Positions 2,531 to 19,938 of a stretch of 64,000 nt of DNA are shown piece after piece; the first letter of the stretch is position 1, and every line of letters starts with the position of its first letter. The stretch comes from a virus. The DNA lies in the IMG/VR virus record IMGVR_UViG_3300031839_001380, positions 1-64,000 of that record, one strand, 5' to 3'. The notes under the pieces were generated by a model. That model worked only from the letters and a program-made list of their open reading frames with translations, had not been told where the DNA came from and did no database searches. The translations under genes were made by a program, and so were the position numbers.

Positions 2531-2672
2531 TCAACTTTATGAGGATATGGACAAGCTCAATGCTCTTTTTGAAGAACTAATGTGGCATCCAGATGATGAG
2601 TTAGTTTTTACGCATGAGAATGGTCGAGTTGTGATTTATAATAGGACTTTAGATGATTGCAACAGTAATTGA
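2517..2672 (+). CDS. small protein, unknown function
   Basis: A 51-residue acidic protein (MTNPNQLYEDMDKLNALFEELMWHPDDELVF is its first part) with an amphipathic helix and a short beta-like end. The start is fixed by the near-perfect AAGGAGG ribosome site. It overlaps the following oxygenase reading frame by 20 nt. Function unknown. Confidence 0.6.
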   Translation: MTNPNQLYEDMDKLNALFEELMWHPDDELVFTHENGRVVIYNRTLDDCNSN

Positions 2673-3219
2673 TAAGCAATTTGAGCTTTCGTATATGGTT
2701 AAGGTTGAGACGCAAATCAAAAACCTACCAGTAACTGCTACTAACATTGCGAACGGTACTTCAGTTCCTTATGGAGAGAATGGAACTCATAGATTGATGG
2801 GGGAAAACATATTTGAAAGGGAGTCAATAAACAAAGTAGTAAATCTCATGGATGACAGTGAGATTTTCTTTGATATGTTGGAGGAATTAGAAGAGCTTCT
2901 TGATAAAAGATTTTATCTTAATAGAATTGATTTTAACTTACAGCATTCTTTTTGTGATGGGACTAGTCATATAGATGGAGAAGAAGGTTCCTATACAATT
3001 ATGTACATGCCGAATTTGGAATGGGATACTTTAGAATGGGGTGGTCAGTTTCAACTACTTGATGATGAAGATAATGTTATAGAAGAGCATGAATATGTAC
3101 CTGGTAGGGTACTAATTTTCCCATCGGAGATTAAACATAGAGGACTAGGACCACGGCATCCTCATGTGTATAGATACACTGTGGTATGGAGAGTACAGGA
3201 GCTCAACGACGCATTATGA
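2653..3219 (+). CDS. Fe(II)/2-oxoglutarate oxygenase (prolyl-hydroxylase-like)
   Basis: A 188-residue double-stranded beta-helix enzyme. The metal triad is visible as His106-x-Asp108 in TSHIDGEEGS and His162 in PSEIKHRG; Arg174 in VYRYTVVW is placed to bind 2-oxoglutarate. The GGQFQLLD strand between them is typical of the prolyl 4-hydroxylase-type fold. An alternative start at 2695 would remove the 20-nt overlap with the upstream gene without touching the catalytic core. It ends with ATGA coupling to another oxygenase. The substrate is unknown. Confidence 0.82.
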   Translation: MIATVIDKQFELSYMVKVETQIKNLPVTATNIANGTSVPYGENGTHRLMGENIFERESINKVVNLMDDSEIFFDMLEELEELLDKRFYLNRIDFNLQHSFCDGTSHIDGEEGSYTIMYMPNLEWDTLEWGGQFQLLDDEDNVIEEHEYVPGRVLIFPSEIKHRGLGPRHPHVYRYTVVWRVQELNDAL

Positions 3220-3746
3220 AACCAAACATTCTTTCCCTTGACAAAGCTCTATCTTCAGAAGACTTTAGAGAAGTAAGTGAGTATGCATATGACGCTGAGT
3301 ATGCATATGGTGAGCGAGACGATGATTCCCACAAACCAACAGGATTGATTTGTGAATTAGATCCAGAAAATGAAGAAGATGATGCCATTGTAGGCATCTT
3401 AGAAACCATAATCTATGCTAGATATCCAGAGATTCAGGAGTATAAATTATACCGAGCATACATTAATTGCTTTGCTCCTAGAGAGATCGCAAACTTTCAT
3501 AAAGACTGTGATATTGATCAAGATGAAGTTACTTTCATTTTCTATGCCAACAAAAATTATACTGGAGTAGATGAGGGGGGATGTACGGAGTTCTTCTTGG
3601 ACAATAAAATTATTGGTGTCCCTCCCGTCCCTAATACTTTATTAAAATTTACTTCTTGGATTTTGCATAGAGCAACTCCTTTGAATTCGGATCATCGTTT
3701 TACCTATGCACTCAAATATTCTAAAGAAGATTATTCAGGAACATAG
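3216..3746 (+). CDS. Fe(II)/2-oxoglutarate oxygenase
   Basis: A 176-residue protein with His95-x-Asp97 (NFHKDCD), His151 (SWILHRATP) and Arg161 (HRFTYALKY), the full Fe(II)/2-oxoglutarate set. A GGCTEFFLDN strand pair separates them as in prolyl hydroxylases. The start at 3216 overlaps the previous stop as ATGA; an in-frame ATG 30 nt upstream is less likely. It overlaps the next oxygenase gene by 41 nt. It is diverged from its neighbours in sequence, so the array is not a simple recent duplication. Confidence 0.82.
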   Translation: MKPNILSLDKALSSEDFREVSEYAYDAEYAYGERDDDSHKPTGLICELDPENEEDDAIVGILETIIYARYPEIQEYKLYRAYINCFAPREIANFHKDCDIDQDEVTFIFYANKNYTGVDEGGCTEFFLDNKIIGVPPVPNTLLKFTSWILHRATPLNSDHRFTYALKYSKEDYSGT

Positions 3747-4311
3747 ATATCATGTGGAGGATGGACTATTCCTCCCCGAAGTCATCGATGAGCTTAGGGA
3801 GTACGCTCTCAATGCAGAAGACCCGGATGATATCTATGAAGACTACTACTCTCTTAATTTTTCTAAAGAGAGGTTGCGCCTTCCCATTCTTTCTGCTATA
3901 ATAACAGGGTTGGAAACAAGGTTCCCATTCCTTGGTCATTTTGATAGAGGATGGGCATTTGTTTACGACAATAATGCCGAAGGTGTGACTCCACATGCTG
4001 ACCCAGCATGTTATAATGTGAATCTCTGGGTCACTCCAGATTCTTCTGTAGAAGATCCAGAGAAAAATGGTTTGATTCTTTACGATATCAAACCGCCTCC
4101 GACATGGACATGGCGTGAGTATAATACGGATGTCAAGTTGATTCGGAAATATCTGGAGTATACTAGATCAGAGAAGACGATTATACCATATGCGTATAAT
4201 CGTCTTCTCATATTCAACTCCAAGTACTTTCACGAAACAAATAGAGTTTCGATGAAACCAGGTTCCAATCACAGAAGAGTTAATTACACCTTCATGTTTA
4301 AGACTCAGTAG
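3706..4311 (+). CDS. Fe(II)/2-oxoglutarate oxygenase
   Basis: A 201-residue protein with His97-x-Asp99 (VTPHADPACYNVNLWV), His176 (SKYFHETNRV) and Arg190/191, matching the Fe(II)/2-oxoglutarate core. A WTWREYN insert lies between the two halves. The stop codon TAG lies inside the downstream tRNA-Arg gene, so the coding sequence and the tRNA share 10 nt. The 41-nt overlap with the upstream oxygenase suggests that the true start could be a non-ATG codon slightly further on. Substrate unknown. Confidence 0.8.
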   Translation: MHSNILKKIIQEHRYHVEDGLFLPEVIDELREYALNAEDPDDIYEDYYSLNFSKERLRLPILSAIITGLETRFPFLGHFDRGWAFVYDNNAEGVTPHADPACYNVNLWVTPDSSVEDPEKNGLILYDIKPPPTWTWREYNTDVKLIRKYLEYTRSEKTIIPYAYNRLLIFNSKYFHETNRVSMKPGSNHRRVNYTFMFKTQ

Positions 4312-4377: not shown

Positions 4378-4449
4378 GGGAGATTAGCTCAGAGGTAGAG
4401 CACCTCGTTTACACCGAGATTGTCACAAGTTCGATCCTTGTATCTCCCA
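4378..4449 (+). tRNA. tRNA-Val(UAC)
   Basis: Cloverleaf with acceptor GGGAGAT/ATCTCCC, D stem GCTC/GAGC, loop TTTACAC (anticodon TAC), T stem ACAAG/CTTGT with TTCGATC loop, discriminator A. The outermost anticodon-stem pair is a C-A mismatch (4403/4419). No CCA is encoded. It starts 3 nt after tRNA-Arg, and its last base is the A of the next gene's ATG. Confidence 0.94.
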
Positions 4450-5102
4450 TGAATTTTTTCAGTAATAAAGATTTTCAACTTAATGAATCCTGGAATATTG
4501 TGAATGTTCCTTGGAAAGATTCTGAGATTTTATTCATTGACGATATATATAAGTACCCTGAAAAAATTTATCAATACCTTAACTCTGTTAATAGTATTGT
4601 AACTCATAAATCTTGTAAGGGATCTCTCAATGGCATTGACTTTATGGATGGTCAAATGCTATTGGATAATAGGTGGGATTTGCACAGAAAATATTTGTTA
4701 GAATCGATAGCAAATAATTATAATCTAGAAGTAGATCCACAAACTGCACCCCATACGATCAATCAGTTTAGATTGATTAATGATGTTCCAAAAGAGAGAC
4801 ACTGGCATCCTCACACTGATGGTCAATTAAATTTTATTATCTTTTTGAATCCAACTCATCATATGAAATCTGGCACTTCATTGTATACTCCTTGCAATAC
4901 AAAAGCAAAGAGCTATTCTAGTAAAAGGGACACCGAACATACAAGTCCTTGGAAAACCAATAAACAGTTCAAGGAAGATTTGTGTATCTTAGATCGATTT
5001 AATTGTGGGGTCGTGTTTCCTGGAAAATGGTTTCATGGTCAAACAATTGTAGACGACTTCTTTAAACAAACAACTAGATTTACTGAGGTTACTTTTTTAT
5101 GA
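4449..5102 (+). CDS. DUF6445-like oxygenase-fold protein
   Basis: A 217-residue protein with HWHPHTDGQLNFIIFLN, giving His122-x-Asp124, then GTSLY, PGKWFHGQ (His196) and a terminal TTRFTEVTFL (Arg210). This is the layout of the DUF6445-type branch of the Fe(II)/2-oxoglutarate superfamily. A Lys/Ser-rich insert of about 30 residues sits before the distal His. The ATG overlaps the tRNA-Val discriminator base, so translation must start from a transcript in which the tRNA has not been cut out, or from one cleaved exactly at the start codon. Substrate unknown. Confidence 0.75.
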   Translation: MNFFSNKDFQLNESWNIVNVPWKDSEILFIDDIYKYPEKIYQYLNSVNSIVTHKSCKGSLNGIDFMDGQMLLDNRWDLHRKYLLESIANNYNLEVDPQTAPHTINQFRLINDVPKERHWHPHTDGQLNFIIFLNPTHHMKSGTSLYTPCNTKAKSYSSKRDTEHTSPWKTNKQFKEDLCILDRFNCGVVFPGKWFHGQTIVDDFFKQTTRFTEVTFL

Positions 5103-6477: not shown

Positions 6478-7470
6478 ATGATTGCATTAATAACTGGTAT
6501 TACAGGACAGGATGGATCGTACCTTGCAGAACTTCTCCTTGAAAAAGGATATGAAGTTCATGGCATTGTACGCCGTTCTTCTCTTATTAATACTCATAGA
6601 ATTGATCATATCTATGATCGTATTCATCTCCATTATGGAGACCTGACTGATGCTGGTAATCTTATCAGTATTATTCAAAAGATCAAACCAACTGAGGTTT
6701 ATAACCTTGGTGCAATGAGCCATGTTAAGGTGTCTTTCGAGATGCCTGAGTATGTGGGTCAAGTTGATGCTCTAGGAACACTGCGTCTTCTGGAAGCTAT
6801 TCGTCTATTAGATCATCCCTGTAAGTTCTATCAGGCATCTACTAGTGAATTGTATGGACTCGTACAAGAAGTTCCTCAGAAAGAAACAACTCCCTTCTAT
6901 CCAAGATCCCCCTATGGGGTGGCAAAACTATACTCTTACTGGATGGTCAGAAACTATCGTGAAGCGTATGGTATCCATGCTAGTAATGGTATCCTATTCA
7001 ACCATGAATCCCCTAGGAGAGGTGAAACCTTCGTTACCCGTAAGATCACGATGGGATTGTCAAAGATCTCTGCAGGTCTGCAAGATATTTTAGAGCTTGG
7101 TAATCTGGATGCTCAGCGTGATTGGGGGCATGCTAAAGATTTTGTTCGTGGTATGTGGATGATCTCTCAGCATGATACTCCTGACGATTTTGTTCTTGCC
7201 ACTGGTAAGATGCGTAGTGTTAGGGAGTTTGTTGAAGAAGCTTCTCAGTATTATGGATTCAGTATTGAGTGGCGTGGAGAGGGATTGGATGAGGTTGGTT
7301 TCTGTAAATGTATGAACAGAGACATCATTCGCATCAACCCTAAATATTACCGCCCAACAGAAGTTGAACAACTACTGGGTGATTATACCAAGGCTAAAAC
7401 TGTCCTCGGATGGGAACCAGATATTAGTTTTTCGGAACTTGTACAAGACATGTGTATTTACGGACAATGA
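6478..7470 (+). CDS. gmd: GDP-mannose 4,6-dehydratase
   Basis: A 330-residue extended short-chain dehydrogenase that converts GDP-D-mannose to GDP-4-keto-6-deoxymannose, the first step to GDP-L-fucose. The NADP-binding TGITGQDG lies at residues 6-13, the Ser/Thr-Glu catalytic region as ASTSELYG, and the Tyr-x3-Lys pair as YGVAK. Residues [15 protein letters not shown] form the family's GDP-mannose binding stretch. Length is close to bacterial Gmd (about 350-370). It opens a tightly coupled glycan operon; the next gene overlaps by 4 nt and GDP-fucose synthase follows it. Identification is confident from motifs. Confidence 0.95.
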
Positions 7471-8717
7471 ATAAATTTTACAAAATTGAAAAATGTAGAG
7501 TTTGTGGTAACGAACATCTAGTTACGGTACTCGATCTTGGTGATCAGTATCTCTCTGGTATTTTTCCAAAAACGATTGACTTTGGAATGTATAGGGGTCC
7601 TTTAGCTCTTGTCAAATGCGATGAGAAGAAGGGTGGATGTGGGCATGTTCAACTAGAACATACCTTTGATCTTCCTACCATGTATGGTGAAGAATATGGA
7701 TACCGTTCTGGTTTGAATGGTTCTATGATCCGTCACTTGCGTGAGAAAGCAGAAAAAATCAAGGCGGATACTAAACTAGAGTCGGGTGATATTGTTGTTG
7801 ATATTGCTGGTAATGATGGCACCTTCCTAAGTTGTTTCCCTCATGATCTTCAGCTCATGAGTATTGATCCTACCTCTAAAAAGTTTAGAGATTTTATCCC
7901 TGACCATGTGAGTTACATTGCAGACTTCTTCTCTGCTGATGCCTTCCGTGAGCGGTTTGGTAAGCAAAAGGCAAAGGTCATTACATCATTCTCTATGTTC
8001 TATGACCTAGAGGATCCTTGTGAGTTTGCTCGTCAGGTCCATGAAGTCCTTGATCCTCAGGGTATCTGGGTTCTTGAGCAGAGCTACATGCCTGAGATGC
8101 TGAAGCAGAATTCTTTTGATACTGTGTGTCATGAGCATCTGTCTTACTATGGTATGAGACAACTTAAATACATCATGGACAAAGCGGGATTCAAGATTGT
8201 TGATTTTGATTTCAATGATGTCAATGGTGGCAGCATCTCTGTTGTTGTTACTCACGCTACTAATAGTGAGCGTAAAGAGTGTACAACTAAACTCACTGGT
8301 ATCATCGCTCTAGAACTTGAAAAGAAGTTAGATACTATTGAGCCTTGGGAAGAATTTGCTCAGAGAATTAATGATTGTAAAGACCAGTTCTGGAAGATCA
8401 TGGACTTCTACAAATCAAATAATGCAAAGATCTGTTGTCTAGGTGCTAGTACTAAAGGTAATGTGACTCTTCAAACATGGGAGATTGGTCCTGATGATGT
8501 AGAGGCTATTGGTGATGTTAATCCTGATAAGGATGGATCATTTACACCTGGTACATGGATTCCTATTAAGGATGAAGAAGACATTATGATGAATGAATAT
8601 GATCTTCATATTGTTCTACCTTGGCACTTTAGAAATTTCTTCCTTAAGAATCCTAAGTTTAAAGGAAAGCGTTTCTTGTTCCCTCTTCCAGAACCTGAAG
8701 TTGTAATCGCCCCATGA
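7467..8717 (+). CDS. NDP-sugar C-methyltransferase-like protein
   Basis: A 416-residue protein with the three-part plan of deoxysugar C-methyltransferases (TylC3/NovU type). An N-terminal zinc-binding module has Cys10-x2-Cys13 with Cys51 and Cys58. A central SAM domain carries [13 protein letters not shown] as motif I. A C-terminal Rossmann-like domain contains CLGASTKGN and ends at [19 protein letters not shown] and CHEHLSYY match the family's active-site region. It may methylate a keto-deoxysugar such as the Gmd product, branching off from fucose. The start at 7467 gives ATGA overlap with gmd; an in-frame ATG 15 nt upstream is less likely. Confidence 0.85.
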
Positions 8718-9667
8718 AACTTAGAACAATGAAAAAAGATTCAAAGATTTATGTCGCTGGTCATCGTGGTTTAGTTGGATCTTCTATTGTTCGTCGTTTA
8801 GAACATGAAGGGTATGAAAACATTGTTACTAGGACTAGGCAAGAACTTGATCTTATGGATCAAGATGCTGTAGAAAGTTTCTTTGATTATGAACAAATTG
8901 ATTATGTATTTGATGCTGCTGCTCGTGTCGGTGGCATCCACGCCAATGATACATATTCGGCAGAGTTCATCTATCAGAACACTCAGATTCAAAACAATCT
9001 AATTCACAATGCTTGGAAAAGCGGTGTTAAAAAGTTTTTGTTTTTGGGAAGTGTATGCATCTATCCTAAGTTTGCAGAGACTCCTGTACAAGAAGAGTCG
9101 TTGATGTCTGGAGAACTTGAGCCTACTAATGATGCATATGCTCTAGCTAAGATTCATGGTATCTACATGCTCAAGTCCTACTACAAGCAGTATGGATTCA
9201 AGAGTGTTTCTCTTATGCCTGCTAACCTATATGGTCCTAATGATAACTTCCACCCCATGAATGGGCATGTCATTCCGGCGATGATGCAGAAGTTTAATAA
9301 CTGGACTCAAGGTAACGATCCGGTCACCTGCTGGGGCACAGGAGACCCTCGTAGGGAGTTTCTCCATGTAGATGATCTTGCTGATGCATGTCTCTTCGCC
9401 ATGGATAACTATAGTCAGGCAGAGTTGCTGAATGTGGGGTCAGGTGAAGATGTTTCTATTAAAGAGCTAGCAGAGATGATTGCTAAAGTTACTGGTTACC
9501 CTGGAGACATCTGTTGGGATGTATCTAAACCAGATGGAACTCCAAAGCGTCCCTTAGACTATACAAAACTCTTGGAAAAAGGTTGGAAGCCGAACTATAA
9601 ATTACTAGATGGTCTTCGTAAGACCTATGAATGGTATACTGCAAACACTGATATTCAAACAAGATGA
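8714..9667 (+). CDS. fcl: GDP-L-fucose synthase
   Basis: A 317-residue epimerase/reductase (WcaG) that converts GDP-4-keto-6-deoxymannose to GDP-L-fucose. The NADP loop reads VAGHRGLVGSS near residues 14-24. The catalytic Ser is in LGSVCIYPKFA, and the Tyr-x3-Lys pair follows in DAYALAKIHG. PANLYGPNDNFHPMNGHVIPAMM and REFLHVDDLADA are hallmark strings of the family. A second in-frame ATG at 8729 is a possible start. With gmd in the same operon the phage can make GDP-L-fucose from host GDP-mannose. Confidence 0.95.
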   Translation: MKLRTMKKDSKIYVAGHRGLVGSSIVRRLEHEGYENIVTRTRQELDLMDQDAVESFFDYEQIDYVFDAAARVGGIHANDTYSAEFIYQNTQIQNNLIHNAWKSGVKKFLFLGSVCIYPKFAETPVQEESLMSGELEPTNDAYALAKIHGIYMLKSYYKQYGFKSVSLMPANLYGPNDNFHPMNGHVIPAMMQKFNNWTQGNDPVTCWGTGDPRREFLHVDDLADACLFAMDNYSQAELLNVGSGEDVSIKELAEMIAKVTGYPGDICWDVSKPDGTPKRPLDYTKLLEKGWKPNYKLLDGLRKTYEWYTANTDIQTR

Positions 9668-10473
9668 TTGGTATTAATTATGTCGGCAAGATGAAAGAGC
9701 GTCTTGCCAATCAAATGTTTCAGTATGCTGCAGTAAAAGGCATTGCTGCTAACAGGGGATTTAATTATTGTGTCCCTCCTTCAAAATTTAAGAGTAATGA
9801 TGATGAATGGAATGAGCACCAGTTGTTTGTTCCTTTTGAATTGACTGACTTAAATCCTCTTCAAGTTCAGTACATTGATTCTGATCGCCCTATTGTTAGA
9901 GAAGAGTTTTATCACTTTGATGAGAATCTGTTTAATAATTGTCCAGACTTTGTTAGTCTCTTTGGATTCTTTCAGTCTGAAAAATATTTCAAACATATCA
10001 GGGAAGATATTCTGAAGGACTTTACTTTTACTGAGGATTATCTAGAGCCTTGTAAGAAGATGTTGATGGATGTAACAAATCCTATCGCTCTTCATATTCG
10101 CCGTAGTGATTATGCTAATTATTCGCACCATCCTATTTGTGATATAAATTACTATAAGGAAGCGTTAACATACTTCGGTCCTGAACGGGAAGTGATTATC
10201 TTCTCGGATGATCCCGAATGGTGTTTGGATGAATCAACTTTCGATAACGATAGATTCTTAGTTTCTCAAACAAATGATCAGTATCTTGATCTTTGTATGA
10301 TGTCTCTCTGCAGTGATTTTATTATTGCAAATAGTTCTTTTAGTTGGTGGGGAGCGTGGCTCTCTACTAATAAGAATAAGAAAGTCATCGCTCCTAAAAC
10401 CTGGTTCGGACCTCCTCTAGATAAAACAAATGATACAAAAGATTTGTACTGTGAAGGATGGAAAGTGATATGA
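9664..10473 (+). CDS. GT11 alpha-1,2-fucosyltransferase-like
   Basis: A 269-residue GDP-fucose-dependent glycosyltransferase of family GT11. Visible motifs are RLANQMFQYAA at residues 13-23 (usual form GxLGNQxFQYA), HIRRSDY at 144-150 (usual HxRRGDY, the GDP-fucose site), FSDDPEW at 180-186, and ANSSFSWWGAWL near 222-233. Known members transfer fucose to a beta-galactose or similar acceptor. It follows fcl by ATGA overlap and precedes the GT6 gene, which places donor synthesis, fucosylation and the next transfer in one operon. Confidence 0.92.
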   Translation: MIGINYVGKMKERLANQMFQYAAVKGIAANRGFNYCVPPSKFKSNDDEWNEHQLFVPFELTDLNPLQVQYIDSDRPIVREEFYHFDENLFNNCPDFVSLFGFFQSEKYFKHIREDILKDFTFTEDYLEPCKKMLMDVTNPIALHIRRSDYANYSHHPICDINYYKEALTYFGPEREVIIFSDDPEWCLDESTFDNDRFLVSQTNDQYLDLCMMSLCSDFIIANSSFSWWGAWLSTNKNKKVIAPKTWFGPPLDKTNDTKDLYCEGWKVI

Positions 10474-11165
10474 GTGTAGCTATTATATTCATTGGGACAA
10501 ACAAGTATCTAGATTTCCTTCCGAAATATTATGAGACTTGCGAAAAACTTCTTTTTCCTGATCTGAAAAAACAATATTATGTTTTTACTGATGGGGAACT
10601 TGGTGGTGATGTACCTGATAACATGACGGTTGTTCCTATTGAGCATAAAGACTGGCCTGCAATCACACTAGAAAGATTTCACACTATCTTAACAGCAGAA
10701 GAACTTCTGAAAGAGCATGAATGGTTGCTCTTTCTAGATGCTGATATGAGAGTTGACTCTGTAGTCTTCTCTGAAGAACTTCTCGATGATGATAAAGACT
10801 TTGTTGCTGTTCACCATCCATGTCATTACTTGACTGGTACGGGAACCTTTGAAACTAATCCTGAATCCGAAGCTTATGTGAAGGGAGAACCTCTTCAATA
10901 CTATCAAGGATGCCTCTGGGGAGGTAAAATTGAAGCAGTCATTCCTATGATGAAACTCTTAAAAGACAGAGTTGACAAAGATTATAGTAATGATATAATT
11001 GCTCTATGGCATGATGAAAGTCATCTCAATAGATTCTTTATTGAAAACAACGATAGGGTGTTTGCTGTTGCACCGGACTATGCATTCCCAGAATGCTATC
11101 CTAACTATCCCTACCAAAGAAAAATTGTACACCTATCCAAAGATAATTCATCTTATCAAGTATGA
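10470..11165 (+). CDS. GT6 (ABO/alpha-1,3-Gal/GalNAc) family glycosyltransferase
   Basis: A 231-residue retaining glycosyltransferase of family GT6, whose vertebrate members make the blood-group A and B antigens and alpha-Gal. The sequence shows YYVFTD at residues 36-41, the metal-binding D90-A-D92 in LFLDADMRV, YYQGCLWGG at 144-152, and the family signature WHDESHLNRFF at 180-190. It lacks the membrane anchor and stem of animal enzymes. Residues aligned to ABO positions 266 and 268 are Gln146 and Cys148, unlike either A (Leu/Gly) or B (Met/Ala), so donor choice cannot be inferred. In the ABO pathway GT6 acts on a fucosylated acceptor, and here it directly follows the GT11 gene. Confidence 0.92.
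   Translation: MSVAIIFIGTNKYLDFLPKYYETCEKLLFPDLKKQYYVFTDGELGGDVPDNMTVVPIEHKDWPAITLERFHTILTAEELLKEHEWLLFLDADMRVDSVVFSEELLDDDKDFVAVHHPCHYLTGTGTFETNPESEAYVKGEPLQYYQGCLWGGKIEAVIPMMKLLKDRVDKDYSNDIIALWHDESHLNRFFIENNDRVFAVAPDYAFPECYPNYPYQRKIVHLSKDNSSYQV
10972..10999 (+). promoter_or_regulatory. candidate internal sigma70 promoter
   Basis: TTGACA (10972-10977) is followed after 16 nt by TATAAT (10994-10999), with TGA just before it as an extended -10. It lies inside the GT6 gene, about 160 nt before the FkbM-like gene. It could be a chance match in AT-rich coding sequence. Confidence 0.35.
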
Positions 11166-11863
11166 GCGATCCAAATGCATGGCAAATGCCAACCTTCTTC
11201 ACTGCGGACAAAGCAGATGAACTCAGATATAAATTCCCTGGACTTGAACTGGTAAGTCACCAGAACTTCTCGCAGTGTTACCAGGATATGTTTGTTTTGA
11301 GTATGACTGATGGTCGTCCAAAAGGAACTTTTGTTGAGATCGGATCTGGACATCCAGTAATTTCTAACAATACTGCTCTCCTTGAATCTCGCTTCGAGTG
11401 GAATGGTATTGGTCTTGAGATCAAAGATCATGAAGCTGATTTATATAATCAACATCGTCGTGCAAAGGTCGCTGTAGGGGATGCTACCACTGCAGACTTT
11501 GATGCATTGTTTGAAGAAGTTGGTATTGGTCCTAACTTTGATTACTTACAAGTAGATTGTGAACCAGCTGCGGTCACATTTGAAGCATTGAAAAAGATTG
11601 ATCTTGACAAATATAAATTTGCTACAATCACATTTGAACATGATGCGTATAATGACGGTACTGATGTTAGAGATGCTTCTCGTGAGTATCTTTCGTCATA
11701 TGGCTACATCTTGATCGCTGATAATATTTCTGTAGATGATGAGCATCCCTTTGAAGATTGGTGGGCTCATCCTGATCTTGTACCATCCCATACTATTGAT
11801 ACAATGAAGTGTGTAGATGGAGAAACTAAAAAAGCAGAAGATTATATGCTAGGGAGGGTATGA
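11162..11863 (+). CDS. FkbM-type methyltransferase
   Basis: A 233-residue SAM methyltransferase. SQCYQDMFV leads into motif I FVEIGSGHP (residues 57-65); GIGLEIK carries the acidic ribose contact, and DYLQVDCEPA is the post-I region typical of FkbM-family O-methyltransferases. Such enzymes often methylate sugars in surface glycans. It overlaps the GT6 gene by 4 nt and the next glycosyltransferase by 1-4 nt, so it probably modifies a sugar of the same glycan. Confidence 0.82.
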   Translation: MSDPNAWQMPTFFTADKADELRYKFPGLELVSHQNFSQCYQDMFVLSMTDGRPKGTFVEIGSGHPVISNNTALLESRFEWNGIGLEIKDHEADLYNQHRRAKVAVGDATTADFDALFEEVGIGPNFDYLQVDCEPAAVTFEALKKIDLDKYKFATITFEHDAYNDGTDVRDASREYLSSYGYILIADNISVDDEHPFEDWWAHPDLVPSHTIDTMKCVDGETKKAEDYMLGRV

Positions 11864-12792
11864 TGAAGTGTGTACTATGGGGGTATCCCTTACACTCTGA
11901 CACATACTCTTATGTTCATGAGGGATTTAAAAAGGCCCTAGAAAGAGCAGGACATCAAGTTCATTGGTTCCATGATGATGAATATCCTGAACACTCGGAC
12001 TTTGATTATGAAGACTGTGTGTTTTTTACTGAAGGATACGCAGATAAAAATATCCCGGTCCTTGCTAGTTGCGTTTACTATGTTCATGTATGCGTAAACC
12101 CTGAGAAGTATCTTGGCAACTGTAAGAAACTAGTTGATGTTCGCTATCACCAGGATAGTATGGACAAAGATAACTATGAGTTCCATCATGATTTAAATGA
12201 CTTTGAAGAATTAGATACTGGAGTTTGCATTGATCGTATCTCTTCACAAGAGAAGGGGTACGATATTGTATATCTTGCATGGGCTACTGATCTAATGCCA
12301 GAAGAGTTTGATGAAGAGTGGGTAAACATTCCAAGAGAGAATACTTTCTATTTTATCGGAAGCATTTCTCATGAAGGTAGGTTTAAAAATGCCCATCTAA
12401 TTCAAGAGTTTGGAACATTGTGTGCTAAAATTGATGTGAGAACTGGTTGGTCTAATCCGTGGGTTAATCCCTTAGATGGATCAGTCATGAGAGATCTTAT
12501 GCAAAGATCTTTTATGAATCCAGATCTTAGAAATGATACTCATAAGAGGTGGGGCACCAAAACTTGTAGAGTTTTTAAGTCTATGAGTTACGGGCATTTA
12601 GGTATTACCAACTCACCCAAGCTTGCTAAATTTGCTGGACCTGAAGTTATCTGTGAAGAAAACATTAGTGATCTTTTTGAAGCAGGATTAAAGTATAGAG
12701 AAGATAAAGAATTAATTCTCAGACAGATGCGCTATACAAAAGAGCATCATACATATGTTAATCGTATTAACGGACTCCTTAAATTGCTATGA
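11863..12792 (+). CDS. GT-B fold glycosyltransferase-like protein
   Basis: About 309 residues. The N-terminal Rossmann half starts KCVLWGYPLHSDTYSYVHEG and the C-terminal half contains RVFKSMSYGHLGITNSPKL, which resembles the donor-binding region of CgeB/GT1-like enzymes. Acidic, with no membrane segment. Two adjacent ATGs at 11860 and 11863 are possible starts; the Shine-Dalgarno GGAGG at 11853-11857 has better spacing to 11863. It ends in ATGA overlap with the next gene. Donor and acceptor unknown. Confidence 0.65.
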   Translation: MKCVLWGYPLHSDTYSYVHEGFKKALERAGHQVHWFHDDEYPEHSDFDYEDCVFFTEGYADKNIPVLASCVYYVHVCVNPEKYLGNCKKLVDVRYHQDSMDKDNYEFHHDLNDFEELDTGVCIDRISSQEKGYDIVYLAWATDLMPEEFDEEWVNIPRENTFYFIGSISHEGRFKNAHLIQEFGTLCAKIDVRTGWSNPWVNPLDGSVMRDLMQRSFMNPDLRNDTHKRWGTKTCRVFKSMSYGHLGITNSPKLAKFAGPEVICEENISDLFEAGLKYREDKELILRQMRYTKEHHTYVNRINGLLKLL

Positions 12793-13646
12793 GTAAACTA
12801 ACCTTTGGTTTTATCGTCGGCGGTGACGATAAGTATTATACGAATCTCATGAGAGCTTGTGAGTCCCTTGAACGGGTTAAGCAGGACCATGAGATTCTTA
12901 TCATTGATATGGACAATCGTTTGGATATTGAAGATCCAAAAGTTAAGATTGTTTTCACTGATGAAGACAAACTAAAACAGAGGTATCTTAAGAACGGTGA
13001 TGATGATCGTAATTGGTTCCAACCTCATGCCTGGGCAGAGCGTTATAATCTCTACAAGCATGTAGAGACTGATCATTGTATTTACCTTGATACTGATTGT
13101 GTTATTGTTAATGATCGTATTGATGAGCTGATTGAAGAGGCAGGAGAAGATTTTTTACTTACTCAGCACTGGTGGGTTCCTACACTGGATGATTATTTTA
13201 GGAATGTGATTGTAGATAGGACAGGACTATCTAAGTATCTCCCTGATGATCATTCTGAGTATGTCTATGGAGCTTCTGGGGCATTCATGTTCCAAAAAGA
13301 AAAGCATGATAAATTATTTGAAAGGTATAATGAAATTTTTGAAGATATCTTTAGTCGTCCTGGTGCCCATACTGGAGTGACTGATGAGTTAGTTCTTTGT
13401 CTTGCCCTCAATGAAGTTGGTGGATACAAATTTACTAACGGATCTTTTAATCATTGTGCTGCAGCTGATCAGCAAGATTTGAAGATGCAAGATGATACAT
13501 TTTATGGGAAGAATCCTCAGGAAGATGAGTATAAAAAGATCTTTGCATTCCATAGTGCATGTGAGAATGTAGATTCACTTAAGTATCATAGTCCTGGATT
13601 TATTGATCAGATTAAGAAAACTATGTATTGGGAGGATTATCAATGA
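12789..13646 (+). CDS. GT-A fold glycosyltransferase
   Basis: A 285-residue enzyme with a GT-A layout: a beta-strand-rich N-terminus (LTFGFIVGGDD), a metal-binding DTD at residues 101-103 in CIYLDTDCVIV, and a distal region with GASGAFMFQKEKHD and FHSACEN that could complete the metal/donor site. It resembles GT8-like or uncharacterised phage transferases; the exact family is uncertain. Start and end overlap neighbours by 4 nt, so it is translationally coupled within the operon. Confidence 0.7.
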   Translation: MSKLTFGFIVGGDDKYYTNLMRACESLERVKQDHEILIIDMDNRLDIEDPKVKIVFTDEDKLKQRYLKNGDDDRNWFQPHAWAERYNLYKHVETDHCIYLDTDCVIVNDRIDELIEEAGEDFLLTQHWWVPTLDDYFRNVIVDRTGLSKYLPDDHSEYVYGASGAFMFQKEKHDKLFERYNEIFEDIFSRPGAHTGVTDELVLCLALNEVGGYKFTNGSFNHCAAADQQDLKMQDDTFYGKNPQEDEYKKIFAFHSACENVDSLKYHSPGFIDQIKKTMYWEDYQ

Positions 13647-14605
13647 AGATTGCTTTAATTGGTCCTGGTATTATGAACATTCCACCTGAGGGGTGGGGTG
13701 CTGTTGAGATGCTCATCTGGGATTACACTCTGATTCTTAGGGAGCTTGGTCATCGAGTAGAAATTATCAATACTCCAGACAGAGAACTGATTAAGTTTGA
13801 GGTGGAACATGGTAAGTATGATGTAGTGCATCTACATTATGATGTCTTTCATGATATCATCGATGACTTGGTTCCTCTATGTAAGAAACTAGTAGTGTCT
13901 AGTCACTACCCATATGTTAATACTCCTCACATGTGGGGTAAAGATAACTATGGACCTGTGGTACAGAAGTATGCTGCTAACAGAAACTTTCATATCTTCT
14001 GCTCATCTCAGAAAGACTTTAACACTTGGGTGGAATTTGGTGCTAATCCTAATCGTGTTTGGTTGAGCAAACTTGGTGTCCGTCCTTATCCATATAAGTT
14101 CGATGAGTTTGCCAGTTGGGATAGAACATTATGCTTCTCTCAAATTGTAGATCGTAAGCGTCAGTATCTTTTAGAAGGTATTGATACCGTTGATTTCATG
14201 GGTCGCATGGAGTTTGGTGGTAAGTTTGATAGAAAGAATTCAAATTACAAGGGAGAGGTTATTCGAGAAAAGCTTAATGAATACATTACATGTTATTCAA
14301 ACATGGTTTTGTTGAGTGAAGTAGAGAACACTACTCCTTTGGTTATTAAAGAAGGATTGATTTGTGGATTGGGTATTGTTTGCTCAGAAGCAATTACTCC
14401 CGAGTTGGATACATCCAAACCATGGATTGATGTGATTCCTGAGAGTCAAATAAATAACATCGATCACATTCTCAATGTGATTGACAATAATAAAAAAGTA
14501 TCGAAGCAGTATAGAAAAGAGATTAGAGAATACGGTATCAACGAATTCGGTCTTGAAAATATTCTTGCTTATGAATACATTCCGAAGTTGCAATCTTTGC
14601 TATGA
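13643..14605 (+). CDS. GT4-like glycosyltransferase, tandem copy 1
   Basis: A 320-residue GT-B enzyme. IGPGIMNIPPEGWGAVEMLIWDY at its N-terminus matches the IPPxGWGAVExLIWDYxxxL module of GT4 enzymes that act on surface glycans. The distal domain has VLLSEVENTTPLVIKEGLICGLGIVCSE in place of the usual ExxGxxxxEAxAxG, with E (residue about 244) retained. It is paralogous to the next gene: both share the N-terminal GWGAVExLIWDY and the C-terminal LDT...VIPES motifs. The start at 13643 is preferred over an ATG 15 nt upstream because it overlaps the previous stop as ATGA. Confidence 0.82.
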   Translation: MKIALIGPGIMNIPPEGWGAVEMLIWDYTLILRELGHRVEIINTPDRELIKFEVEHGKYDVVHLHYDVFHDIIDDLVPLCKKLVVSSHYPYVNTPHMWGKDNYGPVVQKYAANRNFHIFCSSQKDFNTWVEFGANPNRVWLSKLGVRPYPYKFDEFASWDRTLCFSQIVDRKRQYLLEGIDTVDFMGRMEFGGKFDRKNSNYKGEVIREKLNEYITCYSNMVLLSEVENTTPLVIKEGLICGLGIVCSEAITPELDTSKPWIDVIPESQINNIDHILNVIDNNKKVSKQYRKEIREYGINEFGLENILAYEYIPKLQSLL

Positions 14606-15555
14606 GATTTAGTATTATTGGTCCCGCGACTGCTATTCCCCCAGTAGGATGGGGGGCAGTAGAGAGCCTTATCTGGGACTATAAACTTACCCTAGAGAAA
14701 CTCGGTCATGAAGTTGACATCATTAATATCTCAGATCCTAGAGAAATTATAAAAAGAGTCAATGCGTATAGTCCCGATTTCGTGCATATTCATTACGATG
14801 ACTGGGTTGTTCTCTATCCTTATATTCAATATCCTTGTGCGTGTACCACCCACTTCGCATACCTTGAGCAGTCCCACAAGATGAATGGGTATGGCCAAAT
14901 CTTTGGTCAGTTTCAACAGACTAAACCAAATGTGTTCTGTCTGTCAGAAGGTATTAGGAAAGCATATCATATTCTTGGTGATATTCCTGATGATAGATTG
15001 TTCATCGTACCTAATGGTGTCAATCTAGATCTGTTCCGCACTACTGATACTCCAGAGTTTCCTGATCGTAGCATCTACCTTGCTAAGGTTGACTATCGTA
15101 AGCGTCAGCATAAGTTTCAGTCTATCGATAGCTTGTTCTTTGCTGGTAACATTGCAGATAAAAAATTTAATCCTAACAAGAACTATCTTGGTGAATGGAA
15201 GAAGGAGTATCTTCATGATTATCTAACTGATTATGGCAACCTTGTCCTTCTATCTGATGGTGAGGCACACTCTCTTGTAATTATGGAAGCTTTTGCTTCT
15301 GGTCTTGGTGTAGTGGTTAGTGAGTTTGCTCAAGCAAACCTTGATACTGATAGGGAATTCATCACAGTCATCCCAGAATCTAAGATTGATGATGTAGAAT
15401 TTGTAGAGTATGCTATAATTAAGAATAGGGAATACTCCATCACTCATCGTGATGAGATCCTTGAGTATGCAAAAGAGTTTGATTGGTCAACAGTCTTACA
15501 AAACCACTACCTGCCTAATGTACAAGAAGTGATCGCAAAGCATGGACAAAAATAA
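14602..15555 (+). CDS. GT4-like glycosyltransferase, tandem copy 2
   Basis: A 317-residue GT-B enzyme, paralogous to the gene before it (IIGPATAIPPVGWGAVESLIWDY, FIVPNGVNLDLF, SDGEAHSLVIMEAFASGLGVVVSEF). It keeps the more canonical GT4 donor site, including PNGVN and the ExxAHSLVIMEAFASG stretch. The two copies probably add different sugars of the same glycan. ATGA overlaps at the start, and a 14-nt overlap with the GT25 gene at the end. Confidence 0.85.
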   Translation: MRFSIIGPATAIPPVGWGAVESLIWDYKLTLEKLGHEVDIINISDPREIIKRVNAYSPDFVHIHYDDWVVLYPYIQYPCACTTHFAYLEQSHKMNGYGQIFGQFQQTKPNVFCLSEGIRKAYHILGDIPDDRLFIVPNGVNLDLFRTTDTPEFPDRSIYLAKVDYRKRQHKFQSIDSLFFAGNIADKKFNPNKNYLGEWKKEYLHDYLTDYGNLVLLSDGEAHSLVIMEAFASGLGVVVSEFAQANLDTDREFITVIPESKIDDVEFVEYAIIKNREYSITHRDEILEYAKEFDWSTVLQNHYLPNVQEVIAKHGQK

Positions 15556-16330
15556 GTCTGCACAAAAACTCAAAGATCTCCCCCATGTATATTGGTTGAA
15601 CCTTGACGGCAAAGAAGATCGCCGCCAATGGATGGAGAACCAGTTTGCATATTGGGAAGTGGAGAACACCAGAATCTCTGCTTATGATGGACGCAATGAT
15701 GATCTTAGCGACATCATTGCAGGTAAGTACCCTGACAACATGTCCTCTGGTGAAATCGGATGTGTTACATCCCATCTTAAAGCTATTCAATATTGGTTGG
15801 ACAATTCCGACGAAGAGTATGCTATAATGATGGAAGATGACTGCGATCTTGAGGTGGTCAAGCATTGGCCATTCTCTTGGAAAGACTTCTTCCGTAATGC
15901 ACCTGCTGCATGGGACTGTCTCCAAATCGCAATTATCAATCCTGCCGTCCCTGTGATGCAAATGCACTACAGGTTCATTAACGACTTCTCAACGGCTGCC
16001 TATGTTATCAATCGTAGGTATGCTGAAAAGCTACTTTCTCTTTACACTCGTAAAGGTAAGTACAAGTTAGATGGTAGAATTAAACCCCGTGCAGTTGCAG
16101 ATGATCTCATCTACAATAGCGGGATGACCTACGCAATGCCTATACTCATGTATAAGATTGCTCTTGGGTCAGATATTCATAACATTCATGTTGATGTATA
16201 TCATCGTCAATGTCATGATGCCCTCTGGAACTTTTGGAGGAATGATGCTAATATGGTTGAGGATTGGAATCAATTCTTTGATCTCAATCCTTACCTTGGC
16301 AGACTTCCTCCTGGTTTTGAAGGGAAGTAA
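15542..16330 (+). CDS. GT25-like LPS glycosyltransferase
   Basis: A 262-residue transferase with the family 25 layout: VYWLNLDGKEDRR near residues 17-29, SSGEIGCVTSHLKAI at 68-82, and the acidic metal site MMEDDCD at 96-102. Family members transfer galactose or glucose in lipooligosaccharide synthesis. It is the last gene of the 10-kb glycan operon. A late promoter and a structured leader for the next gene follow. Confidence 0.85.
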   Translation: MDKNKSAQKLKDLPHVYWLNLDGKEDRRQWMENQFAYWEVENTRISAYDGRNDDLSDIIAGKYPDNMSSGEIGCVTSHLKAIQYWLDNSDEEYAIMMEDDCDLEVVKHWPFSWKDFFRNAPAAWDCLQIAIINPAVPVMQMHYRFINDFSTAAYVINRRYAEKLLSLYTRKGKYKLDGRIKPRAVADDLIYNSGMTYAMPILMYKIALGSDIHNIHVDVYHRQCHDALWNFWRNDANMVEDWNQFFDLNPYLGRLPPGFEGK

Positions 16331-16444: not shown

Positions 16445-16816
16445 ATGTTTAAATCTGTATTCGCAGCTTCCGCTGCTCTTTTCGCTTCTGCTGGCGCTGC
16501 CCTTGCAGGTCCATATGTTAATGTCGAAACCAATGCTGGTTGGACTGGCTCCGAGTATAATGGTGCTGGAACAGACCTGCATGTAGGATTTGAAGGCGAA
16601 CTCGGTGAGTCTGCTTCGTACTATGTCCAGGGTGGTGCCACTGTGCTGACTCCTGATGGTGGTGACGCTGAAAGCGTTCCTTCTGGTAAGGCGGGTCTGG
16701 GTCTTGCACTGACCGATGCACTGGGTGCATATGGTGAAGTCTCCTTCGTTGGTTCTGGTGACGAAGATCTCGACCGTGGTTACGGTGCTAAGTTGGGCGT
16801 TAAGTACAGCTTCTGA
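16445..16816 (+). CDS. secreted small beta-barrel-like outer-membrane protein
   Basis: A 123-residue protein with a clear signal peptide (MFKSVFAASAALFASAGAAL, cleavage after A-L-A at residue 21). The mature part alternates polar and nonpolar residues in short strands (YVNVETNAGW, DLHVGFEGELG, ASYYVQGGATVL, AYGEVSFVG, GAKLGVKYSF) and ends in Phe, as outer-membrane beta-barrel proteins do. It is short for a full barrel (perhaps six to eight strands). It has its own late promoter, palindrome, leader and downstream terminator. A role in the host envelope late in infection is inferred; a virion-associated role is possible. Confidence 0.7.
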   Translation: MFKSVFAASAALFASAGAALAGPYVNVETNAGWTGSEYNGAGTDLHVGFEGELGESASYYVQGGATVLTPDGGDAESVPSGKAGLGLALTDALGAYGEVSFVGSGDEDLDRGYGAKLGVKYSF

Positions 16817-16854
16817 TCCTTCATATAGACACATAAACATCTAGATGTTATACT

Positions 16855-16881
16855 GGGGGTGCGACGGCATCCCCTTTTTTT
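16855..16881 (+). terminator. Rho-independent terminator
   Basis: GGGGGTGC (16855-16862), loop GACG, GCATCCCC (16867-16874) with one G-U pair, then seven T residues ending at 16881. The next gene's ATG starts at 16882, directly after the T run. Confidence 0.88.
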
Positions 16882-18494: not shown

Positions 18495-18659
18495 ATGCCT
18501 CATGGATTCGTGACTAAAAATGATATTTTGGCTAGAGTTTATAAAATAAAAACTGAACTCTACGATGGTCAAAAAGACGATAAGAATAGTGATTGGCACG
18601 ATGGTGCTCACGATTCGTTAAATAAAATACTTAATCTCCTTCAAGAATATATTCAATGA
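18495..18659 (+). CDS. small conserved phage protein, unknown function
   Basis: A 54-residue soluble protein beginning MPHGFVTKNDILARVYKIKT, with DWHDGAHDSLNKILNLLQEY at the end forming a likely helix. Histidine and aspartate pairs (WHDGAHD) may bind metal, but no family is named. It overlaps the halogenase-like gene by 4 nt (ATGA). Confidence 0.6.
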   Translation: MPHGFVTKNDILARVYKIKTELYDGQKDDKNSDWHDGAHDSLNKILNLLQEYIQ

Positions 18660-19768
18660 AAATTGGTGTTGTTGGTGGTGGTAACGCTGGACTGACTGTT
18701 GCCATGGTCGTATTTGCAGAAACATACGGTCAAGATGTGGAGATTGAGCTTTACTATGATCCAGAAGTTCCTATCGAAAAGGTGGGGCAAGGGTCACTAA
18801 TAAATTTTGTGGTTCTTCTTTCAGATGTGTTTGGTATTGATTGGTATAATAATCCAATTGATGCAACATTTAAAACTGGAATCCTATATGAAGACTGGGG
18901 GAAGAAGAAGGATAAATTCTTCCATCCTTTCCCTATGAACTACACAGCTATTCATTACTCTCCTAGTAAATTGAGAGAGTATATGAAAGATAAAAAAGTA
19001 TGTAAGTTCATTGAGCAGAATGTTGAGGACTGTAATGATCTTGACTGTGATTATGTCTTTGACTGTAGGGGAACCCCAAAAGATTTTTCTTATTACAACA
19101 TCCTGAAAAATCCATTGAACAGTGTTCTTCTTGGGAAGAGTAATGATGTAGATGTTCATCAGCATTGGACAAGGTGTATTGCTACACCAGATGGTTGGAT
19201 GTTCTCTATACCTGATAAAGATCAGACTAATTATGGATACCTATACAATCAAAATTATACATCAAAGACTGAGGCAGAAGAAAACCTAGCAAATCTATAC
19301 GGTATTCAAGGCACAGAACATCTTCAATTTAAAAATTACTTAGCTAGGAGACCTATTCAGAATGATAAGGTTATTCTGAATGGTAATAGGTTAATGTTCA
19401 TTGAGCCTTTAGAAGCAAGTTCAGTTGAAACCTATTATCGTTGGACTAGTTTAGCTCTTGATTGGATTTTGGGTAACGAGTCTAAGAGATCAGTTCTACA
19501 GGACCTTGTGACACATGTGGAAGAGATACAGAACTTCATTCTCTGGCACTACGCAAACGGGTCAAAGTATGCTACAATGTTCTGGTCAGAAGCAGAGCAG
19601 ATGGCAAAGAATCATTCTTATGATGAGTACTTCTTTGACTTCATTCGTTCTGCCAAATCCAATAGTAGACATGAACTTGTCTATAACCATGACGATTCTT
19701 ACGGGCATTGGTATGGGACCAGCTTTAAAAGCTGGATTGACAACACGCACCTCTTGACAGATATGTGA
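18656..19768 (+). CDS. flavin-dependent halogenase-like oxidoreductase
   Basis: A 370-residue protein of the tryptophan-halogenase family. The FAD-binding GGGNAG loop lies at residues 7-12. TFKTGILYEDW (residues 71-81) holds a lysine (Lys73) aligned with the catalytic Lys that forms the haloamine. A degenerate form of the WxWxIP halogenase motif appears as GWMFSIP, and FIEPLEASSVE matches the FxxPLExxGxx region. It is shorter than typical tryptophan halogenases (about 500-540), lacking part of the C-terminal substrate lid, and the usual GE(S/A)T motif is replaced by GQGSL. It may be a halogenase or a related monooxygenase; the substrate is unknown. Confidence 0.75.
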   Translation: MKIGVVGGGNAGLTVAMVVFAETYGQDVEIELYYDPEVPIEKVGQGSLINFVVLLSDVFGIDWYNNPIDATFKTGILYEDWGKKKDKFFHPFPMNYTAIHYSPSKLREYMKDKKVCKFIEQNVEDCNDLDCDYVFDCRGTPKDFSYYNILKNPLNSVLLGKSNDVDVHQHWTRCIATPDGWMFSIPDKDQTNYGYLYNQNYTSKTEAEENLANLYGIQGTEHLQFKNYLARRPIQNDKVILNGNRLMFIEPLEASSVETYYRWTSLALDWILGNESKRSVLQDLVTHVEEIQNFILWHYANGSKYATMFWSEAEQMAKNHSYDEYFFDFIRSAKSNSRHELVYNHDDSYGHWYGTSFKSWIDNTHLLTDM

Positions 19769-19917: not shown

Positions 19918-19938
19918 CTTACTTTTTTGTTCAAAACA

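Follow-up and report, generated by a model that had tools for sequence, protein, structure and literature searches.

INTRODUCTION

Family 6 glycosyltransferases (GT6) were noted in two cyanophages in 2014, and the accessible text of the same paper describes the transfer of GalNAc to 2′-fucosyl-lactose by BoGT6a (PMC3961637), the nearest solved GT6 to the enzyme considered here. The accessible text of a 2023 paper, called metagenomic-assembled in its title, reports PF03414 and GDP-L-fucose genes of Synechococcus phages DSL-LC02 and DSL-LC03 and reads PF03414 as DNA glycosylation; the sugar methyltransferase of DSL-LC02 is not mentioned in that text (PMC10611076). Here, we analyze an operon in a 64,000-base stretch of viral DNA (the window, bases 1 to 64,000 of the 179,846-base IMG/VR record IMGVR_UViG_3300031839_001380, a linear record by its classification and possibly an incomplete one). 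In this operon, a sugar C-methyltransferase (CMT) gene lies between gmd and fcl, upstream of genes for a family 11 glycosyltransferase (GT11) and GT6. On the sequence evidence, the operon probably makes and transfers a C-methylated 6-deoxyhexose and not plain fucose.

Several phages share parts of this arrangement. Prochlorococcus phage P-SSM2 (AY939844) has gmd, fcl, GT11, and GT6 in that order in one cluster with a GT25 gene at its end, as in the window; hli, ferredoxin, and psbA genes follow, and GT11 and GT6 are annotated as such there. Unlike in the window, CMT was not found in the P-SSM2 cluster, and GT11 is separated by further genes from both fcl and GT6. Its Fcl and GT6 are 51 and 35% identical to those of the window, and its GT6 has the donor motif A-G-G, whereas that of the window has Q-G-C. 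In DSL-LC03 (OR003938), the same four genes are contiguous across the record start; this cluster differs from the window in having no CMT and an Fcl of another clade (54%). The order in phage ACG-2014f is gmd, fcl, an aminotransferase gene, GT11, two hypothetical genes, and GT6. The aminotransferase (positions 9237 to 10430 of locus L173) is of the DegT/DnrJ family (PF01041) and RfbH-like, and with it in the cluster, this phage may channel GDP-4-keto-6-deoxymannose into an amino or dideoxy sugar besides fucose. The gmd-CMT-fcl triad itself is found in DSL-LC02 (OR032571), where GT11 and GT6 are adjacent further along the cluster, although several genes separate fcl from GT11. Six phage records match the window CMT; DSL-LC02, the one named cyanophage among them, is also the only one to exceed 40% identity.

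The combination of gmd, fcl, GT11, and GT6 is thus already known from other cyanophages. A preliminary description of the window had mentioned an earlier report of GT6 in a cyanophage, which was correct but understated, since 71 of 50,697 phage records contain a GT6 relative. It had also taken the ordered combination with fucose synthesis and GT11 to be new, a view refuted by the recurrence of this four-gene order in P-SSM2, ACG-2014f, and DSL-LC03.

Outside phages, the three enzyme types encoded by gmd, CMT, and fcl appear in the same order in the gmd/TylCIII/GMER route to GDP-L-virenose proposed in silico for a bacterium (accessible text of PMC3539893). The CMT of that route was compared with TDP-type TylCIII, and its later steps are in silico proposals. 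In the open-access literature searched, we came across no paper that interprets phage gmd-fcl loci in terms of a C-methyl sugar and none that discusses the phage GT11-GT6 pair.

RESULTS

A C-methyltransferase gene is coupled between gmd and fcl

Profile and structure-sequence matches bear out the gmd, fcl, GT11, and GT6 genes reported in the preliminary description, with their coordinates and order (Table 1). All four are in the operon, but the interval from 6478 to 11165 that they were said to fill holds five genes, as CMT had been overlooked between gmd and fcl, and the operon does not end with GT6. Eleven plus-strand genes occupy positions 6478 to 16330, gmd being the first and GT25 the last. 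Their 10 junctions comprise 9 ATGA stop-start overlaps and, just before GT25, one overlap of 14 bases. The fucose route, described as complete, is so from GDP-mannose onward but not upstream: NTP_transferase (PF00483) and MannoseP_isomer (PF01050) have no match anywhere in the 179,846-base record, possibly an incomplete genome. GDP-mannose must therefore come from the host, unless a part of the genome missing from the record supplies it.

The CMT gene has its full length and is joined to both neighbors by ATGA overlaps; its open reading frame (ORF) is listed from a GTG at 7452, and the likely start is the ATG at 7467 that overlaps the gmd stop codon. The zinc-binding N-terminal domain, the S-adenosylmethionine (SAM) domain, and the C-terminal Methyltransf_14 domain all score over cut-off (matches to Methyltransf_13, _23, and _14), and four Cys residues are retained in the window CMT. 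All ten distinct Protein Data Bank (PDB) sequence matches, TcaB9 among them, are sugar 3-C-methyltransferases, the best being D-mycarose 3-C-methyltransferase, and the homology spans nearly the full length.

To describe the neighborhood of CMT in viruses, we used the best 80 of 142 relatives (79 loci, 57 dereplicated clusters). The order gmd-CMT-fcl is present in 45 of the 57 clusters. Among the rest, five show gmd-CMT ended by the contig edge, one shows CMT-fcl ended before gmd, one (L066) has CMT-fcl without an adjacent gmd, and five have neither arrangement, three of these showing CMT and then gmd. The more distant viral loci L081, L083, and L084 have CMT followed by gmd, no adjoining fcl, and GT6 upstream of GT11, that is, in reversed order.

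Bacterial relatives were found via two conserved peptides and are hence selected for likeness. In 62 of the 80 best of 545 such loci, there is either a gmd of at least 55% identity in the locus or a gmd-family short-chain dehydrogenase/reductase (SDR) gene directly upstream of CMT; in bacteria, too, the CMT subfamily is tied to GDP-mannose enzymes. An Fcl of at least 50% identity is present in only one of these 80 loci, L185, on contig AG-894-P10 of an uncultured gammaproteobacterium metagenome-assembled genome that encodes gmd on another contig. Matches to the CMT-linked Fcl (E ≤ 0.001) were found in 22 of 25 genomes of the same order, but only the L185 genome reaches 66% identity, the next being at 48%.

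In an alignment of 55 phage and 80 bacterial CMT proteins (135 in total; one shorter phage row was omitted), all 135 keep the active-site Glu-His pair of TylC3. The active site of the TylC3/TcaB9 type consists of His181, Tyr222, Glu224, and His225; the positions of His181 and Tyr222 hold Asp and Cys in the same 135 proteins. Together, these observations suggest that the CMT subfamily may be a GDP-sugar-specific branch of the 3-C-methyltransferases.

One clade of Fcl travels with the C-methyltransferase

The 331 viral loci examined, which may overlap where they come from one contig, contain 240 Fcl genes (not dereplicated). Of these, 99 immediately follow CMT and 118 immediately follow gmd; 19 are found elsewhere, and 4 are at edges. 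Identity to the window Fcl has a median of 70.7% in the CMT-linked group (10th percentile, 67.2%; minimum, 43.6%) and a maximum of 57.6% in the gmd-linked group. A tree was built from 103 dereplicated viral Fcl and three references (106 rows, 23 CMT-linked). One clade unites 21 of the 23 CMT-linked rows with the bacterial CMT neighbor L185 (SH-aLRT support of 99, rising to 100 once five long rows, including L332 and L236, were dropped). Outside it are the CMT-linked Fcl of L052 and L332, as well as the distant Fcl-like gene that follows CMT in L236, a bacterial locus. The 4831-base L052 may be a recombinant or chimeric contig.

The CMT label changes 4 times on the Fcl tree, compared to a mean of 21.1 when shuffled, although strongly supported branches alone force only 3 changes. 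No group at ≥88% identity mixes CMT-linked with gmd-linked Fcl. In these data, Fcl tracks CMT.

Residues of the 22 clade members were compared with those of 63 Fcl linked to gmd; the count leaves aside 14 “other” rows and 3 at edges. Seven alignment columns fully split the two groups (divergence of 1.00 to two decimals). Flanked by the catalytic residues S107 and C109, position 108 of the E. coli enzyme is occupied by Val in all 22 clade members; among the gmd-linked sequences, it is Ser in 56 and Ala in 7, and the Fcl of L052 and L332 also have Ser108. The five catalytic residues S107, C109, Y136, K140, and H179 are intact in all 22 clade members, the window Fcl included; residue numbers and roles are those of E. 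coli GMER. The cut-off of NF047922, the GDP-L-fucose synthase equivalog, was also tried as a separator of CMT-linked from other Fcl and failed: the window Fcl scores 439.6 bits, and no tested phage Fcl reached the required 500.

Gmd does not follow the same division

Gmd served as a control. In a Gmd tree of 82 rows, 17 of them CMT-linked, the CMT label changes 10 times, compared to a mean of 15.7 when shuffled; strongly supported branches alone force only 3 changes here, as on the Fcl tree. After dropping 11 rows with neither context and the longest rows, 68 were left for a topology test, and a single clade of the 17 CMT-linked Gmd as opposed to the 51 others was rejected [approximately unbiased test (p-AU) of 0.0038]. 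Both contexts occur within 6 of 82 Gmd groups at ≥88% identity, and identities to the window Gmd overlap (69.0 to 100% for CMT-linked and 53.3 to 74.9% for fcl-linked). Thus, Gmd is exchanged between contexts, while Fcl accompanies CMT. Since Gmd does not split by CMT as Fcl does, the cassette has not simply moved as one block.

GT11 and GT6 form a near-obligate pair

A GT6-seeded scan of viral loci (best 80 of 495 relatives, 62 dereplicated clusters) showed GT11 to be the immediate upstream neighbor of GT6, in the same orientation, in 53 clusters. GT11 is elsewhere in the locus in 8, and a contig end cuts the last one. Conversely, in a GT11-seeded scan (best 80 of 418, 57 clusters), GT11 was followed, as the next detected gene, by GT6 in 42 clusters, by GT25 in 10, and by fcl in 2; in the other 3, it was followed by none of the eleven. 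The near-obligate pairing, along with the retention of the WHDE motif and DXD in GT6 (see below), supports the earlier proposal that GT6 acts next to the product of GT11.

The pair is found in varied company. Within the stretches covered, 20 of the 53 adjacent-pair loci have gmd, CMT, and fcl; 18 have gmd and fcl without CMT; 5 have gmd only or fcl only; and 10 have none of the three. Ten named GT6-bearing phage genomes from the 71 records were searched whole. A strong Fcl was detected in four (DSL-LC02, DSL-LC03, ACG-2014f, and P-SSM2), and no fcl ortholog was found in the other six: Bellamy, S-8S56, S-CAM9, S-PRM1, and SynMITS9220M01 yielded only SDR matches of ≤110 bits, and B23 yielded none. 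The GT11-GT6 pair is therefore independent of a phage fucose route. In L177 (8068 to 9189) and L174 (8128 to 9213), loci of phages without fcl, a distinct Epimerase-family SDR gene with no equivalog over cut-off precedes GT11-GT6; this enzyme may make the sugar that the pair uses there.

We also considered whether GT11 and GT6 form CMT-specific subfamilies and rejected this idea, since their clustering by CMT goes beyond that of shuffled labels but is loose. The label changes 9 times for 15 CMT rows on the GT11 tree (shuffled mean, 14.3) and 6 times for 12 CMT rows on the GT6 tree (shuffled mean, 10.8).

Most phage GT6 share a donor motif unlike that of GTB or BoGT6a

We aligned 68 phage GT6 rows, one per cluster and the window included. 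DXD is present in all 68 and is DAD in the window, while BoGT6a has NXN at the same place. According to the accessible text of PMC3961637, NXN and DXD are linked to metal dependence in GT6, and by its DXD, unlike the NXN of BoGT6a, phage GT6 is probably metal-dependent. The window enzyme has W, H, D, and E at the positions of residues 300 to 303 of the human blood-group B transferase (GTB) and His at GTB position 233. Besides family membership, BoGT6a and the human A and B transferases (GTA and GTB) share this WHDE motif and this His with phage GT6. 

At the positions of GTB residues 266 to 268, 63 of the 68 rows, including that of the window, have Q-G-C; two (P-SSM2 and AG-345-F15) have A-G-G, two (L081 and L083) have C-G-G, and in one the residues are missing. 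The corresponding motifs are M-G-A in GTB and A-G-G in BoGT6a, so the Q-G-C of the window does not conform to an ABO-type donor site. Cys at position 268, as opposed to Ala in GTB and Gly in BoGT6a, would argue against a GalNAc donor, and the blood-group A/B donor reading of the preliminary description appears weak, also in view of the six GT6 genomes without an fcl ortholog. The position of GTB D326 is occupied by Pro both in the window GT6 and in BoGT6a, a user of 2′-fucosyl-lactose, and a fucosylated or fucose-like acceptor is therefore possible. At the position of GTB T245, the window has Thr, but 32 of the 68 rows have Ala and 11 have Ser. Against the NCBIfam model NF041524 (family 6 transferase), the window GT6 scores 177.2 bits, below the cut-off of 250.

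Layout and surroundings of the operon

The genes of the operon are listed in Table 1. The GT6 ORF is listed from 10458, and the ATG at 10470 overlaps the GT11 stop codon. GT11 had zero matches to PDB sequences at E ≤ 1. Relatives of the FkbM-like gene, at 76 to 100% identity, follow GT6 in the closest CMT-bearing loci.

Table 1. Genes of the operon at positions 6478 to 16330 of the window.
Gene or product	Position	Strand	Evidence
gmd, GDP-mannose 4,6-dehydratase	6478..7470	+	TIGR01472, 527.9 bits (over equivalog cut-off of 415); PF16363, 487.4 bits; 5uzh, E 6.3e-141
CMT, SAM-dependent sugar C-methyltransferase	7467..8717	+	Methyltransf_13/23/14 over cut-off; 4rv9 (TylC3-type), E 1.9e-41; ATGA overlap
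fcl, GDP-4-keto-6-deoxymannose epimerase/reductase, CMT-linked clade	8714..9667	+	E. coli GDP-fucose synthetase 1bsv, E 3.4e-102; residues
GT11, alpha-1,2-fucosyltransferase-like family	9664..10473	+	PF01531, 92.5 bits (cut-off 23.9)
GT6 glycosyltransferase with DXD	10470..11165	+	PF03414, 88.5 bits (cut-off 25); BoGT6a 4ayj, E 7.1e-29
FkbM-like methyltransferase (presumed, named by eye)	11162..11863	+	0 Pfam/NCBIfam families; ATGA overlap
Glycosyltransferase-like	11860..12792	+	Glyco_trans_1_2 PF13524, 21.8 bits (below cut-off of 25); ATGA overlap
Operon gene, probably glycosyltransferase (by eye)	12789..13646	+	0 Pfam families; ATGA overlap
GT4-like glycosyltransferase (ORF listed from TTG 13628; ATG 13643)	13643..14605	+	PF13439, 20.3 bits (below cut-off of 28.5); ATGA overlap
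GT4-like glycosyltransferase	14602..15555	+	PF13439, 35.4 bits (cut-off 28.5); ATGA overlap
Glycosyltransferase family 25 (GT25), final operon gene	15542..16330	+	PF01755, 50.2 bits (cut-off 24); 14-base overlap with preceding gene

The T4-type late promoter sequence TATAAATA occurs 4 times in the window (4.94 expected) and not once upstream of gmd. Sigma-70–like sites are not enriched in the region either (29 compared to 35.1 in shuffled sequences); one perfect 12/12 match (TTGACA-16-TATAAT with TG) lies within GT6, at 10972 to 10999, and may for this reason be due to chance. Downstream of the operon, the stretch from 16445 to 16874 holds a gene for an outer-membrane beta-barrel protein of a cyanophage family (PF24653, 165.3 bits) and, after it, a strong hairpin resembling a terminator (at 16855). 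We assign the record to a cyanophage based on this family match, a psbA-like ORF at 19927 recognized by eye, and the resemblance of the whole cluster to Kyanoviridae clusters. A 370–amino acid ORF adjoining the psbA-like ORF (18656 to 19768) resembles, by eye, a flavin-dependent halogenase or other FAD enzyme. Upstream of the operon, ORFs at 1102–1767, 2653–3219, 3186–3746, 3706–4311, and 4449–5102 look by eye like 2-oxoglutarate–Fe(II) oxygenases and are interspersed with tRNA-Arg and tRNA-Val genes. The whole record has three epimerase-family matches, one of which is the operon Fcl; the third is an SDR on the minus strand at 39024 to 39590, distant from the operon.

DISCUSSION

From the gene identities, their coupling, and the CMT-Fcl and GT11-GT6 associations, we infer the substrates, products, linkages, and biological role of the operon as follows. 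The position of the C-methyltransferase inside the fucose steps makes an unusual methylated relative of fucose a probable product. Gmd, CMT, and Fcl together would yield a GDP-3-C-methyl-6-deoxy-L-hexose, either 3-C-methyl-L-fucose or L-virenose. CMT would add a methyl group to C3, which adjoins the keto group, and the specialized Fcl would then carry out C5 epimerization and C4 reduction. A methylated C3 is quaternary, which would block epimerization at this carbon and leave only the C5 and C4 steps. Epimerization of a manno keto sugar at C5 alone gives the L-gulo configuration if the side of the C3 hydroxyl is kept and L-galacto if C3 is inverted. The product would accordingly be 3-C-methyl-L-fucose if CMT inverts C3 as TylC3 does and L-virenose (gulo) if C3 is retained. 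Methylation with C3 inversion is reported for TylC3 in the accessible text of PMC3539893; in that of PMC12362431, fucose synthase epimerizes C3, then C5, and then reduces C4. GT11 would place the fucose-like sugar on a phage- or host-derived glycan, beside which GT6, probably metal-dependent by its DXD, would add a hexose, probably not GalNAc. The transferases encoded further downstream would extend the glycan. Since they follow in the operon, the most likely target is a host-surface polysaccharide altered during infection; glycosylation of the virion is a possible alternative.

The observation made in the preliminary description is thus partly confirmed and its interpretation partly supported. 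That interpretation had Gmd and Fcl making GDP-L-fucose, GT11 forming an H-type end, and GT6 adding Gal or GalNAc as in ABO synthesis; on such a reading, CMT would serve elsewhere in the glycan pathway. Several observations favor it: the pair is adjacent in 53 of 62 loci and shares a locus in 8 more, 18 of the 53 loci have gmd and fcl with no CMT in the stretch covered, and BoGT6a, which shares Pro at the GTB D326 position with the window GT6, acts on a fucosylated acceptor. We nevertheless consider it unlikely for this operon. The coupling of CMT between gmd and fcl and the membership of the window Fcl in the CMT-traveling clade make plain fucose an improbable product, and the Q-G-C motif of 63 of 68 phage GT6, as well as the absence of an fcl ortholog from 6 of 10 genomes searched whole, speaks against an ABO-type pathway. 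We give a slim chance to a branch point, in which the cassette yields both GDP-L-fucose and its C-methylated form in a ratio set by CMT activity, resulting in a variable surface glycan. A separate Fcl clade with an altered residue by the catalytic Cys would not be expected were CMT a pure bystander, although Fcl does retain the five residues for C3/C5 epimerization and reduction, and loci with and without CMT share the same GT11 and GT6 subfamilies. It is very improbable that CMT methylates another position or that CMT and Fcl hitchhike as a linked unit without specialization of Fcl, given the gmd-CMT-fcl order in 45 of 57 clusters and the near-full-length homology to 3-C-methyltransferases. 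Such an explanation would nonetheless account for the Fcl clade by joint transfer of CMT and fcl, for the ordinary Fcl coupled to CMT in L052, and for the differences from TylC3 described below.

Several observations weigh against a dedicated C-methyl sugar pathway. In all 135 aligned CMT, the 55 from phages and the 80 from bacteria alike, Asp and Cys replace the His and Tyr of TylC3, and the chemistry could therefore differ. According to the accessible text of PMC3539893, this enzyme type had, at the time of writing, been shown to act only on TDP sugars. A special Fcl is not strictly needed beside CMT, since the clade does not include L052 and L332, both with Ser108, while forcing L052 into it was not rejected (p-AU of 0.188, in the tree without L332). 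As the 22 Val108 sequences form one clade, Val108 may reflect one event, not repeated adaptation. In the Gmd trees, well-supported branches alone force only two to three changes. Last, GT11 and GT6 also occur with gmd and fcl but no CMT, or with neither; given these contexts and their loose link to CMT, they may use fucose or host sugars.

Even so, the synthesis and transfer of a C-methylated 6-deoxyhexose appears to be the most probable function of the operon. We are evenly divided on a broader proposal: that cyanophages may possess a complete pathway from GDP-mannose to GDP-3-C-methyl-6-deoxy-L-hexose, with GDP-sugar-specific CMT and coadapted Fcl subfamilies, and use the GT11-GT6 pair to build a capped C-methyl-fucose epitope, which would be a branched-chain sugar of viral making in an ABO-like architecture. 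Two features seem worth following: the proposed C-methyl sugar cassette, which has an Fcl clade of its own, and the near-obligate association of GT11 with GT6, which bears on whether phage GT6 needs an acceptor made by GT11. Annotation of sugar clusters in cyanophages usually goes no further than fucose or lipopolysaccharide genes, and the CMT-linked Fcl clade suggests that “GDP-fucose synthase” annotations in phages and bacteria may mask other products. If our proposal is true, viruses would install a chemically distinctive surface sugar on abundant cyanobacteria, and a C-methylated fucose analog could hide the infected cell from rival phages or grazers and could mark infection chemically.

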